From NCBI GenBank assembly GCA_017414705.1, contig JAFQKX010000048.1:1-34009 (forward strand): a stretch of DNA of 34,009 nucleotides, in the 5' to 3' direction. The stretch is from Clostridia bacterium (GTDB lineage Bacteria; Bacillota; Clostridia; Oscillospirales; Acutalibacteraceae). Under the pieces are notes generated by a model that had not been told where the DNA came from, ran no database searches, and saw only the letters and a program-made list of their open reading frames with translations. Below, in pieces: positions 10,679 through 16,303 of the stretch. A program made the translations under genes and the position numbers. How positions within the stretch are numbered: position 1 is the first letter of the stretch; each line of letters opens with the position of its first letter.

Positions 10679-10709
10679 AAAGCAGTCCCCGAAAGGAAGA
10701 CTGCTTTTT
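10679..10709 (+). terminator. Rho-independent terminator after comFC
   Basis: aaagcagtc (10679-10687) pairs with gactgcttt (10699-10707), followed by a short T run. Confidence 0.85.
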
Positions 10710-10785: not shown

Positions 10786-10826
10786 TGGTATTCTATCATT
10801 AGTGAGGAGCGATATATTTAAGGGAG
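10786..10826 (+). promoter_or_regulatory. Possible extended -10 promoter and RBS of the glycosidase pair
   Basis: TGGTATTCT (extended -10; hexamer 10789-10794) has no convincing -35 at 17 bases; a TTAACT lies 22 bases upstream. A clear Shine-Dalgarno aagggag (10820-10826) precedes ATG 10836 by 9 bases. A weak core promoter would fit activator-dependent expression. Confidence 0.4.
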
Positions 10827-10835
10827 TTGTGACAT

Positions 10836-13670
10836 ATGCAACAAAAATTTCAAAAAAGAGACTTGTATTCTCTCTTGGCCGACGCGTCTGTCTGCCTTTC
10901 TACTGACCGAGGAAACATCACGCTATGCCACACACCGCAGGTGTTTGAAAATAATCAATATTCTTATGAAACCGATTTTTGCCGCGTAGTCGTCTCTGTG
11001 TATGACAAAGGGTCGCAAACGGTCTATCGCAACATTACCATTACCTGCAAGGAGGATTTGGTGCTTTATCGCATCGATCTGCTAATGCAATTGCCCAAGC
11101 GACCAAACGAATTCATCGAATACAAAACACTCATCAATGCTCCTGCCGCCGCATTGATCCGTTATCAAGGAACCGGGTTGTTCACCGGTGCGGAAAACCC
11201 TTTCTTTCGCGCAACGCTGCAAAAAGAAACGGTTTGTATTTCTTATGAGCCCTCCTTGATTCTGAAAAAAGGAGAAACCTATCAGGGAGATCCTCAATTT
11301 TTGGGCAGTTATTCCAGCACGGGAAAGATGGTCAAGGAAAAGCCCCCTGTCACGGTTGATTCTATTTCCCGCGGTATCAAGCGCCCGCGTTTTTTCAATC
11401 CTTGCGGTGCAGTCGCGTTGGATCTTGGGGAGATCAATGCCATGCGTAATTACGTCAAGGAATATTATGACGTGATTCAAAAGCAATTCGATAACATTTT
11501 GTATTTTTTCTTCTATCCCAAAAAGCAGCTACCGCAAACCGAACAAGAGGTGCAGGACTATCTTGACAGCATTGACCGTTTTTGCCAATTAGACGGGACG
11601 GTAGTTGCTTTTAACCCACACGTCAATACGGTTTTGCCTACGGCTGAACAGCCTTTTTGGGAAATGGCACCCGAAGGCTCTGCCGCACAACGCATCCTGC
11701 GATATGCACAAGACAAAGGTCTACGCTGCGGATATTATATGGGGACCGCCTTTAATGGCTACGGCGGAAACGCTGCTTTGTTGCCCTTTATGCCGCAAGA
11801 GAAAGCATGGAAAAAAGTAGACAGTCTCGGCAACGTTGCCAAGGAAAATTGCTTGGGCTGTGATGAATATCTTGACTGGTGGTACACGGTGCAAGCCAAC
11901 ACCATTGAGCGCTACGATCTGGGTTATTGGTCTTGGGATCCCGGCCCCGGAAACGGAAATGATTGCTATGCCACCAACCACGGGCACCTGCCCGGCAAAG
12001 GCGAATACAAGGGCTGGCGCAATTCTATGCGGTTATTGGAACGCCTCAAAACCCGTTTCCCGCAGTTATTCCTCATGTCCTTTTACGGACGCAAGGAATA
12101 CGGCATTTGGGGATTTCGTTGGTTCTCGCAGCACGAGGTCTTTTGGGAGGAAACTCTTTCTGCCGACGCCTCTTTGCACAGTGATCCGCACGATGACCGT
12201 CAAATCGCCCACGGCATTCGTCTGCAAAATCAGTGGTGCATGGATTTCCGTTTTCAACCCTCGCACCTTGGACACGGTTTGGTCACCAAAATGAGCGACA
12301 TGTATTGTGATCCTGCATTGGATCAGGTATATGATCACGGCGGATGGAAAACGGCTTTGCTGTCTTCCATTGCCTGCTGCGGCAGCGTCACGCATTGCTC
12401 ACTGCCCGATCGTTTGGAAAACATCCCGGGATTTGCGGAATTTCACCGTAAATGGATCAAATGGGCAACAGAAAATTATCATTACTGTAATTTCACCCGT
12501 CCCATTGAAGACACCGTATCCAATGAGGTAATCGACGGATTTGCTCGCATTGACCGCGATCGCGGACAAATCTTTTTGTTCAATTCCTCTCCCAAGGTCA
12601 TACGCAAAAAACTACCGCTCACCCAACAGCTTGGACTGGATACCGACCGCGCTTTTTATTTTGACATTCTGCATTATGATGGATTGGACATCGAACAAAC
12701 GCCCTTACAATACGGCGGCACATTTCATATGGGAGATGTGTTGGACATCACATTGCCCGCTTATGCTTGTGTTGTGTTGTCCCTCTCTGATACCAAGGGA
12801 CAAGCAATTGACACACTGCCGTGCATGCAGCATACCATCCATGATTTCCGGGATGAGTCGGGAAAAGAATTCGAATGCTGTGCACACAAATCCTACGAGC
12901 GTGTCATACTGCAAGCACAAGCAGTATTTCACAAGGAACTCAAGCAACAATTAGATGTAATGCACCCTGAAAACGAGGACCAACTACGCAAAAAAATAGA
13001 CGAGTGGCGCAAAGATGATTCTCCTTTTACCTTCTTTTCTGCATTGCCTTGTCGCCTGCCCGTTTACTTCGCGTTTGACGGTGTAAATCTGCCTCGGTCG
13101 GTCCGCTTCTGGGTCAATGATACCGAAATTTCCGTAGAGGCACTTCGACTGCGGGAGATTCCGGTCTCCTATTATGCATTCATTGAGGATTTTGTTCTTT
13201 GGGACACCTCCAACCAACTGCGCGTTGAGATTGAAAATTTGGCAGAAAACAGTTTTCTGGGACTATACGTGGAGTATGCGGACACCTGCCAAGGAATGAC
13301 CGCAAAACAACGCGTTTTTGAGGAAAACAACCGCGAATCTCCCTTGCATTTTGATGATACGCTGCGGATTGATTCCTTTACTTTAACCCCCGATTTCATT
13401 GCCGATATCGACTCGCTCTTTACCGTTAATATCAAAACCTCAGTTGCACCACAAAAAATTGAGTCCGTTTATTTCCTTCATCCCACCATCGCTCAAATGC
13501 CGGCACTGTGTTATGATGCAAAAAGTGATGTTTGGACCGCCACCTTCAATACCGGTGAGCGGTGTCGCAATATTTTCTGTAACTCCACCTTGACGGCCTG
13601 GATTCATACCAAGGACGGCGGCGTAGGCCCGCGAGCAACCTGCAAAATTGATATGCACTATCAGCAATAA
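10836..13670 (+). CDS. Putative TIM-barrel glycoside hydrolase of unassigned family
   Basis: 944-aa protein without a signal peptide. Residues ~1-190 look like a beta-sandwich of the kind found in front of clan-D-like glycosidases (TGLFTGAENPFF, then SLILKKGETYQGDPQFLGSY). The middle (~215-600) looks like a TIM barrel: VVAFNPHVNTVLP, GLRCGYYMGTAFNGYGG, YDLGYWSWDPGPGNG with Asp368 as nucleophile candidate at a strand-4-like position, FLMSFYGRKEYG, and later YDHGGWKT and VTHCSLPDRLENIPGF. A beta-rich tail follows (FLFNSSPKVIRKKLPL onward). I cannot place it in a named GH family; resemblance to GH36/GH31-type enzymes is by motif layout only. The GH172 gene starts 35 bases downstream, so the two probably act on one glycan. 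Codon use is somewhat AT-richer than in the core genes. Confidence 0.6.
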   Translation: MQQKFQKRDLYSLLADASVCLSTDRGNITLCHTPQVFENNQYSYETDFCRVVVSVYDKGSQTVYRNITITCKEDLVLYRIDLLMQLPKRPNEFIEYKTLINAPAAALIRYQGTGLFTGAENPFFRATLQKETVCISYEPSLILKKGETYQGDPQFLGSYSSTGKMVKEKPPVTVDSISRGIKRPRFFNPCGAVALDLGEINAMRNYVKEYYDVIQKQFDNILYFFFYPKKQLPQTEQEVQDYLDSIDRFCQLDGTVVAFNPHVNTVLPTAEQPFWEMAPEGSAAQRILRYAQDKGLRCGYYMGTAFNGYGGNAALLPFMPQEKAWKKVDSLGNVAKENCLGCDEYLDWWYTVQANTIERYDLGYWSWDPGPGNGNDCYATNHGHLPGKGEYKGWRNSMRLLERLKTRFPQLFLMSFYGRKEYGIWGFRWFSQHEVFWEETLSADASLHSDPHDDRQIAHGIRLQNQWCMDFRFQPSHLGHGLVTKMSDMYCDPALDQVYDHGGWKTALLSSIACCGSVTHCSLPDRLENIPGFAEFHRKWIKWATENYHYCNFTRPIEDTVSNEVIDGFARIDRDRGQIFLFNSSPKVIRKKLPLTQQLGLDTDRAFYFDILHYDGLDIEQTPLQYGGTFHMGDVLDITLPAYACVVLSLSDTKGQAIDTLPCMQHTIHDFRDESGKEFECCAHKSYERVILQAQAVFHKELKQQLDVMHPENEDQLRKKIDEWRKDDSPFTFFSALPCRLPVYFAFDGVNLPRSVRFWVNDTEISVEALRLREIPVSYYAFIEDFVLWDTSNQLRVEIENLAENSFLGLYVEYADTCQGMTAKQRVFEENNRESPLHFDDTLRIDSFTLTPDFIADIDSLFTVNIKTSVAPQKIESVYFLHPTIAQMPALCYDAKSDVWTATFNTGERCRNIFCNSTLTAWIHTKDGGVGPRATCKIDMHYQQ

Positions 13671-13705: not shown

Positions 13706-16303
13706 ATGCAAGAAAAATCAAAACAGCATTACAGTTTTTTAGATATCGTTTCCTTGTGCGAGGAGCGGCAACGCAATGCGTTGTTGCCCGAAGCGGGAGA
13801 AGTTTGCCGACAAATCTCATCCACCGACAGACGCTCTGCCTACGATGCCCAAACAGACACTTATCTGCATTGGGATGCCAACGACGGCGACGGATACGGC
13901 AACTGCGGTGTGATCACGGATGAACGCGGAGAGGCGCAGATCGCTTTAGATCTTACGGGAAGCGGTTACATTTCATCGATTTGGTTTGCGCGCCTCGACG
14001 AAGGCAACGCCGATCTGATCATTGACGGAGTACGCTACGAAAACGGCGGTGATCGCGCCAAGGATCTCTTTACCGCCAGCGGGAATTTCAAGGGTCTGGA
14101 CGGGTTGATCTATCAGACACCCGGCCCTGCTTGGTTGTTTAAGCTGCCCATTTCCTTTCAAAAAAGCTGTCGAATCTTATTGCGCAAGAATTGGGGCATT
14201 TATTATAACATCTCCTACGTTTTGTTCCCCGACGGCGTCACGGTAGAGCCGTTTCCGCAGCAGTTCTCGGCAGAACAAAAAGCTGCGTTACAGGCGCTCA
14301 GCGATCGTTTTCTGAAGCAACACGCCTACCTGCCGTCCATCGAAGCATTTACCGATATTACCGTCCCCGCAGGAAAAACAGTAACGGCGTTACAAGCAAC
14401 CGGTTGCGGTGCCTTGGATGGCCTTTGTATGCGCGTAAATGGTTTTGAGACGATGGACGCTGCGCAAAAAGAGACCATTGCCGAGGGGATCACGGTCGCC
14501 ATGTACTGGGACGGAGAAGAAAAACCCGCTGTTTGGGCACCCTTGGGTGCCTTGTTCGGCAGTCCGCTTGCGGATCCCTTCAGCACCTTCTCGCTTGGAT
14601 TGACCCAAGACGGTGTTTTTTACATGCGCTTTCTCCTACCGTATGCCAACGGTGCCAAGGTGGTGCTGTGCAACGAAACAGAGCAAGATGCTTCCTTTGG
14701 TATCGCGATGCAACAAGCTGCACTGCAAATGCCGATTGAGTATTATGGCAGATTCCACGCCAAGTGGAGCCGTAACTGCCATCCCGTTTTGCGCCCTGAC
14801 CGATTCCCCGATCACACTCTGCTCAAGACCTGCGGGCGCGGTCGGTTTATGGGGATAACCTTCCACGCCTATGAAAAGGAAGAATTCGGTTGGTGGGGCG
14901 AAGGTGACGAAAAGATCTTCGTGGACGGGGAAAAATTTCCCTCCTGGTACGGAACCGGCAGCGAGGATTATTTTGGCTTCAGCCATGGAAGAGCCATTAT
15001 GTTCGAACGTCCGTATCACGCGCAGCTGCGTCAGGACGGTGGATTTTACGGTGCGGGGCACAAGATCGACCTGCGCCTGCATCAGACCGACTCCATCCCC
15101 TTCCAAAACGAGATCGAGATCTGCATTGAAAAATATCTGGAGGACGAAAAGGTCTCCTACGATACCGTGGCGTACTGGTATTTATCGCCCGACGGCATCG
15201 ATGATTACGAGCCCGTGGCTCTACGAGAAAGAGTCAAGGTGTGGCGGGAATACGTCTGCCGCCCCGTGGAGCAGATCCTGCTGCGGCAGCAGACCGCAAC
15301 CCTGCGTGAAAACGAAGAGTTGCGCATCATTGCCAAGGTCATCCCCGCCGAATATACCGACAACCGCGCTTTGGTTTGGCATTGCTCCGACCCTGCCGTA
15401 GCGGCGGTAGATGCACGCGGGCAGGTCTTGGCCTTGAAGGCAGGGAATGCTACCATAACCGCCTCGATCGGCTGCGTGAAAGCCGCCTGCCGTGTGACGG
15501 TGCTGCCTCAAGCAGGATCCCCGTCCCCATCGCTCTCCAAACAGCAGCAAGAATGGTTGCAAGAGCATACCGTGGCGCATTATGACTTTGCGAATGCGAA
15601 CGAGCCCTGCAAGGATCGCAGCGGAAACGGTATGGATCTGTCCTTTTACACGCTCGTGGACGGACAGTACCGCGAATCACCCGAATTGTGCAAAACAGTT
15701 CCCGCACTACAAGGCAAGCGTGCGTTGGCGCTGGACGGCGTAACGTTTTTGCTGCAAAAGCAAGTCAACGCAGCCACGCCGATCGATGCACTGCAAAGCT
15801 TCACCGTGACCTATCGTGAGCATATGCCGTCGCGCTGCGCCGATGCTATCCGCGAAAACGGACGCAACTATAAAACCGTATTGGATAAAGGCGGCGCCAC
15901 CTGCGCAAGCGGTTGGTTCTTGGGCAGCGATACCGATACACAGGTTGCCTGCAACGAGTTTTTCTGCGCCCGCAGCAGCAACGGAGAATTATTGTTTAAC
16001 TGCGTCAATGCACCGCATTTCCGTGCGTTGTCATGGCAGCAGATCACCTACACGGTGGATGCAACAAACGGACGCATTGCAGTATATCTGAACGGGCATC
16101 CGATCCGAGAAGCCACCGTTGAGCAGCTTGCGTTGGCAAACGACCATCCGTTGACGGTGGGTGCCGCTGTGAGTAAAACGACCAACGGCTGGGAGATCGT
16201 CGACAACAGCGGTTTTGTTGGGGAACTGACCGACATCCGTATTTTGGACACGGCGCTGACCCCCGAACAGGTCCTCCTGCTGACCGCCGAATCAGCAAAA
16301 TAA
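13706..16303 (+). CDS. GH172 (DUF2961) protein with Big_2-like and LamG-like C-terminal domains
   Basis: The first ~515 residues carry DUF2961/GH172 hallmarks: RRSAYDAQTDTYLHWDANDG, GSGYISSIWFARL, LPISFQKSCRI, then WWGEGDEKIFVDGE and GTGSEDYFGFSHG. Glu399 (in GEGDE) and Glu420 (in GSEDY) are 21 residues apart, matching the spacing of the two catalytic glutamates I recall for the characterised family member from Bifidobacterium dentium. Known GH172 enzymes act on furanosides (alpha-D-fructofuranosides, D-arabinofuranosides). An Ig-like Big_2 domain (~517-600) and a LamG/concanavalin-like domain (~620-860, ending GFVGELTDIRILDTALTPEQ) follow. No signal peptide is present, odd for domains usually found outside the cell. 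SD ggggag lies 9 bases before ATG. Substrate unknown. Confidence 0.85.
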   Translation: MQEKSKQHYSFLDIVSLCEERQRNALLPEAGEVCRQISSTDRRSAYDAQTDTYLHWDANDGDGYGNCGVITDERGEAQIALDLTGSGYISSIWFARLDEGNADLIIDGVRYENGGDRAKDLFTASGNFKGLDGLIYQTPGPAWLFKLPISFQKSCRILLRKNWGIYYNISYVLFPDGVTVEPFPQQFSAEQKAALQALSDRFLKQHAYLPSIEAFTDITVPAGKTVTALQATGCGALDGLCMRVNGFETMDAAQKETIAEGITVAMYWDGEEKPAVWAPLGALFGSPLADPFSTFSLGLTQDGVFYMRFLLPYANGAKVVLCNETEQDASFGIAMQQAALQMPIEYYGRFHAKWSRNCHPVLRPDRFPDHTLLKTCGRGRFMGITFHAYEKEEFGWWGEGDEKIFVDGEKFPSWYGTGSEDYFGFSHGRAIMFERPYHAQLRQDGGFYGAGHKIDLRLHQTDSIPFQNEIEICIEKYLEDEKVSYDTVAYWYLSPDGIDDYEPVALRERVKVWREYVCRPVEQILLRQQTATLRENEELRIIAKVIPAEYTDNRALVWHCSDPAVAAVDARGQVLALKAGNATITASIGCVKAACRVTVLPQAGSPSPSLSKQQQEWLQEHTVAHYDFANANEPCKDRSGNGMDLSFYTLVDGQYRESPELCKTVPALQGKRALALDGVTFLLQKQVNAATPIDALQSFTVTYREHMPSRCADAIRENGRNYKTVLDKGGATCASGWFLGSDTDTQVACNEFFCARSSNGELLFNCVNAPHFRALSWQQITYTVDATNGRIAVYLNGHPIREATVEQLALANDHPLTVGAAVSKTTNGWEIVDNSGFVGELTDIRILDTALTPEQVLLLTAESAK

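Follow-up and report, generated by a model that had tools for sequence, protein, structure and literature searches.

The gene at positions 10836-13670 (plus strand) was found to encode a 944-aa protein that is probably, at odds of about three to one, a cytosolic retaining exo-alpha-glycosidase from a large unnamed family of the same stock as the GH36 alpha-galactosidases (clan GH-D). Three features were shown computationally: the GH36 domain plan, an aspartate (Asp368) placed at the end of barrel strand 4, and an acidic residue conserved at position 438. The best reading of these data is a divergent, GH36-related family of retaining alpha-glycosidases carrying GH2-like beta domains at the C-terminus. 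The window analyzed, 34,009 bases in length, is an entire contig of a genome of about 1.04 Mb (70% complete).

The open reading frame begins with ATG and is preceded by a good Shine-Dalgarno sequence, AAGGGAG (10820-10826, plus strand). Two orthologues, 52-54% identical to it over the full length, could be identified in other genomes, and since the protein is conserved and also matches a known fold, the frame is not a chance product. Upstream of it lies a comF-like gene (PF18912 and PF00156), which in turn follows a recD2-like helicase gene and is itself followed by an intrinsic terminator (10681-10709, plus strand; AGCAGTC..GACTGCT followed by TTTTT, hairpin of -11.6 kcal/mol). As proposed in a reading of the sequence alone, the 944-aa gene is located directly 5′ of a GH172 gene (13706-16303, plus strand), which starts 36 bases after its stop codon, has its own ribosome site GGGGAG and is followed by mreB. 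Because of the terminator and the short gap, the two genes probably form a short transcription unit of their own, flanked by housekeeping genes.

The 865-aa product of the downstream gene contains the GH172 domain (DUF2961; PF11175, E 4.1e-52) together with Big_2 (PF02368) and LamG_3 (PF13385) domains. Its residues Glu399 and Glu420 are 21 positions apart, as are the catalytic glutamates E270 and E291 of the enzyme on which the GH172 family was founded (PMC8605356). The double jelly-roll fold of the GH172/DUF2961 proteins (PMC10509167) is unrelated to the 944-aa protein. No sugar transporter or regulator was found adjoining the gene pair, and no signal peptide is evident on either protein as judged from N-terminal hydropathy; both absences had been noted from the sequence alone. 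The ABC genes 3 kb upstream of the 944-aa gene (SBP_bac_8 and BPD_transp_1 domains) look polyamine-like. Big_2 and LamG_3 domains are usual for secreted proteins, yet the GH172 protein carrying them has no evident signal peptide.

The plan of beta-sandwich, barrel and beta-tail expected from the sequence was seen in an AlphaFold2 model, calculated from a multiple alignment of 7 rows (mean pLDDT 67.6), and is matched by GH36 structures. The N-terminal beta-sandwich (residues 18-160; 10887-11315, plus strand) resembles the GH36 N-domain, the VIA alignment starting at residue 7. It is followed by a (beta/alpha)8 barrel (residues ~211-556; 11466-12503, plus strand), with strands at 222, 256, 297, 364, 412, 480 and 517. 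The model resolves strand 6 poorly, and the pLDDT of residues 432-458 is below 50. The GH36 and GH27 barrels align over residues 211-654. A post-barrel beta domain similar to the GH36 C-domain (566-653; 12531-12794, plus strand) completes the plan, and the VIA range extends to residue 653.

In a Foldseek search of the PDB, ranks 1-21 were occupied by chains of GH36 alpha-galactosidases (best E 8.6e-17), followed by a galactosaminidase of F. plautii. Using VIA, residues 7-653 of the model were superposed on SpAga (6phv) with a Z of 18.6 over 532 residues and 4.1 A, with the GH27 barrels next (Z 14). GH31, GH13 and GH97 structures appear lower in the Foldseek list, which would be expected if the GH36 match reflected the common barrel only and the protein were of one of these types. 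The DUF6259 profile (PF19773) also gave a weak match (E 1.3e-4 over 75 columns), as it would for a DUF6259 protein. Both explanations are very improbable, since GH36 ranks first, stands above the other families and spans all three domains, a profile search placed it first over the full length, and the protein is below the DUF6259 cut-off.

The GH36 relationship was also found from sequences, without use of the model. A profile built from 11 relatives and free of GH36 members yielded only three PDB matches at E <=1, all of them GH36 alpha-galactosidases: 3mi6 (E 2.6e-6), 2yfn (E 2.5e-4) and 2xn0 (E 0.0056). Using hhalign, an alignment of three GH36-like proteins was matched with E 7.3e-20 over 459 columns, and a further uncharacterized subfamily (L044, L048) with E 4.2e-42 over 625 columns.

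Compared with GH36 enzymes, the 944-aa protein has a C-terminal extension of about 290 residues. These residues (655-944) were modelled separately, using three sequences (pLDDT 66.4), and tentatively resemble the jelly-roll and Ig-like pair of GH2 beta-glucuronidases and galactosidases. The first domain (residues ~664-817; 12825-13286, plus strand) is similar to the GH2 sugar-binding jelly roll (8u01; VIA Z 9.0, 116 residues, 3.5 A). The terminal beta domain (~845-938; 13368-13649, plus strand) would be Ig-like by its order after the jelly roll, a weak assignment drawn from the model and structure comparison, and superposing both domains together on GH2 was poor (rmsd 11-12 A). In GH2 the beta pair precedes a clan GH-A barrel, whereas here it follows a GH-D barrel. 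Two relatives from the phylum of the armatimonadete L033 (L044 and L048) appear in the alignment to have part of the extension, so the extra C-terminal beta domain may be ancestral.

In the alpha-galactosidase superfamily, strand 4 ends with the nucleophile and strand 6 with the proton donor (PMC1249566), for example D327 and D387 in TmGalA (PMC6089974). The motif WSWDPGPGNG, in which a nucleophile-like aspartate had been suspected, is present, and Asp368 (codon 11937-11939, plus strand) is exactly its D. The residue directly follows strand 4 (364-367), aligns with the strand-4 catalytic Asp of 3mi6, 2yfn and 2xn0, and is the sole invariant column (18 of 18 rows) in an alignment that includes GH36 and DUF6259 proteins. 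Model and alignments thus agree with a clan GH-D fold having Asp368 at strand 4, the support sought for the original proposal. For the clan, or alpha-galactosidase superfamily, the barrel fold and the strand-4 Asp are present, the retaining mechanism being predicted.

Besides column 368, position 438 is the only one in the barrel to be acidic in 15 or more of the 18 rows; Asp or Glu was found there in 14 of 14 and in 16 of 18 rows. The spacing of 70 residues between Asp368 and Glu438 is identical to that of D478/D548 in AgaA (PDB entry titles) and of the equivalent residues in a GH36 protein identified here (L025). Due to this conservation and spacing, Glu438 (codon 12147-12149, plus strand) is favoured as the general acid/base on strand 6. 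Glu434 (codon 12135-12137, plus strand) is kept as an alternative because hhalign pairs it with the GH36 acid/base and because the model is unreliable at residues 432-458, where the low pLDDT does not allow the two to be separated by structure. At position 438 the family thus conserves an acid, which is a Glu in the 944-aa protein.

A second conserved element, CYATNHGH (residues 377-384; 11964-11987, plus strand), follows strand 4, and its C377, H382 and H384 are invariant in the alignment of 11 family sequences. Motifs of this type are common to DUF6259 and some GH36 proteins. In two bona fide Melibiase (PF02065) proteins, L052 and L025, NHGH also comes just past the strand-4 Asp, which makes the motif older than the unnamed family. 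The uncharacterized DUF6259 proteins share CYAxNHGHxxG after the strand-4 Asp with the 944-aa protein, the similarity being limited to about 75 columns.

The claim that the protein falls into no named family was only partly upheld. No significant match was obtained in Pfam, NCBIfam, PHROGs or PDB sequences, and the claim is true for Pfam and NCBIfam; by fold and profiles, the protein is nevertheless demonstrably a remote GH36 relative and is not unrelated to all families. Melibiase did not match it even at E 5, nor did it match the other members of the unnamed family that were scanned, whereas the GH36 proteins L025 and L052 do match. For DUF6259, no match was found for the 944-aa protein, and the orthologue L028 reached 14.1 bits against a cut-off of 28.7. 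HrpA_pilin and BEN domain matches of the 944-aa protein (E about 0.09) were regarded as noise, and GHL6 and GH97 matches of some relatives were below cut-off. Among the relatives, only GH36 proteins (L025, L052) or DUF6259 proteins (L032, L034, L065) reached a Pfam cut-off. The family is therefore large, real and unnamed as judged against Pfam and NCBIfam profiles, a CAZy listing being a separate matter. No literature on DUF6259 or on a new clan GH-D family was found.

With the GH36 alpha-galactosidases (SpAga 6phv, AgaA 4fnr, L. brevis 3mi6) the protein shares the beta-sandwich, (beta/alpha)8 barrel and C-terminal beta domain, the strand-4 Asp, the acid about 70 residues after it and profile similarity over the whole length. 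A highly diverged GH36 alpha-galactosidase that retains activity on alpha-galactosides, e.g., raffinose-type sugars, would account for this similarity and for the GH36 fold, and also for the GH32 gene next to the orthologue L028, GH32 being the usual partner for such sugars. Such an enzyme is unlikely, since identity to GH36 is only ~10-12% and Melibiase does not match, the Lys366 of the GH36 motif KxD, invariant in three GH36-like proteins, is replaced by Ser366, and the GH36 motif CxxGxxR is absent (no Cys in residues 409-440). For the same reasons the protein was not filed as GH36, and because the KxD lysine is a serine here, galactose is not assured as the sugar removed. A GH-D-type retaining glycosidase is thus a stronger claim than a GH36 alpha-galactosidase.

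When about 1,000 genomes (300 from the same family, 394 from the order and 398 from the phylum) were searched with the single sequence, only the protein itself and noise were returned. The weak matches L002 and L003 were a histidine kinase and an unrelated protein. No close relative was found in phage, plasmid and viral collections, where the pattern match L034 is a DUF6259 protein. Using the barrel alone as query, a 747-aa protein (L005) was detected with E 6e-13 (pairwise BLAST 5e-26). The patterns NCxxCDEY and CYAxNHGH were taken from this pair and used to find loci in public genomes. Further weak matches (L012, L013, L018 and L021) were a Lon-like protease, a membrane protein, another hydrolase-like protein and a UDP-sugar dehydrogenase, and are not relatives.

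The orthologues originate from a Lachnospiraceae genome of sheep colon (L027, 950 aa) and a Clostridia genome of roe deer caecum (L028, 944 aa); across the motif region they are 75-76% identical to the 944-aa protein. Remoter relatives occur in Omnitrophota, Acidobacteriaceae (Acidobacteriota) and Armatimonadetes (Armatimonadota). A seven-sequence profile matched 45 of the 151 sampled genomes of the phylum of L033 (Armatimonadetes) at E <=0.001, and 11 of the 151 at E <1e-30. In the family of L028, matches of any strength were obtained in 5 of 146 genomes. The weaker matches of this profile may be GH36 or DUF6259 proteins. In a tree with long branches, the deep forks had support values of 48 and 23, and the clade of the 944-aa protein was placed neither nearer DUF6259 nor nearer GH36. 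Some of the remoter relatives (L030, L044) begin with a hydrophobic stretch, so exported and cytosolic forms of the unnamed family probably both exist. In one relative (L063, genome G1539) the matched frame is broken by a single in-frame TGA. Another relative (L061) is adjoined by a 574-aa protein (L066, 2775-4499, minus strand) with no Pfam match, the start of which reads like a barrel enzyme.

In the proposed mechanism, Asp368 would attack the anomeric carbon and form a covalent glycosyl-enzyme, the leaving group being protonated by Glu438. Water would then free the sugar with its configuration retained, and the GH2-like beta domains may aid substrate binding or oligomer formation. Transferases are known both on GH-D scaffolds and in the families next to them. 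An enzyme with a GH-D scaffold that acts as a transglycosidase, as a lyase or like a phosphorylase, and not as a hydrolase, would agree with this and with an active-site periphery (CYATNHGH, WSWDPGPGNG) that is unlike GH36. It is nonetheless improbable, as the catalytic Asp and the second acid are conserved family-wide and the neighbouring genes mostly encode hydrolases. The predicted catalytic pair makes the function proposed here, retaining hydrolysis of an alpha-glycoside, directly testable.

Glycosidases recur beside family members: GH172 in the window, GH92 beside L027, GH32 with a DeoR-type regulator beside L028, and GH116 with GH106 beside L033. In the D-arabinan cluster of Microbacterium, GH172 and GH116 enzymes are alpha- and beta-D-arabinofuranosidases (PMC10509167). 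That one genome places the family beside GH172 and another beside GH116 is no more than a lead. Read most economically, the neighbourhood would point to an exo-acting alpha-glycosidase whose substrate is a short, furanoside-containing oligosaccharide; the enzyme may trim the imported oligosaccharide while the co-transcribed GH172 protein removes the furanoside. This substrate assignment is weak because the neighbouring enzymes differ among genomes. The intracellular or unconventionally exported substrate suggested from the sequence alone is likewise conjectural. Going further, we tentatively consider, as a possibility short of an even chance, that the protein founds a clan GH-D family unnamed by CAZy. 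It would be a cytosolic retaining alpha-glycosidase whose acid/base is Glu in place of Asp, whose active-site loop reads CYxxNHGH and whose specificity is for a sugar other than galactose. The substrate on which it would act together with the GH172 furanosidase would be an undescribed oligosaccharide of furanoside and pyranoside units. At another locus (L065, 3656-9038), a family member (943 aa) has a DUF6259 gene (738 aa) of the same orientation as its immediate neighbour, with a SASA esterase as a further one. These two proteins possibly have paired functions.

Since the family is found in several phyla and has no Pfam or NCBIfam profile, annotation pipelines will label its members hypothetical. 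A characterized member would give a function to this whole GH36-related branch and a lead for the uncharacterized DUF6259, and would reveal the working partner of GH172 in gut Clostridia.

The GC3 of the 944-aa gene is 0.52, whereas the values of the other 15 measured genes of the window, the GH172 gene among them, range from 0.63 to 0.70. Its codon-usage correlation with reference genes is 0.63, that of the GH172 gene 0.84. The atypical GC3 and codon usage, together with the absence of the gene from the sampled relatives, suggest a recent horizontal acquisition.
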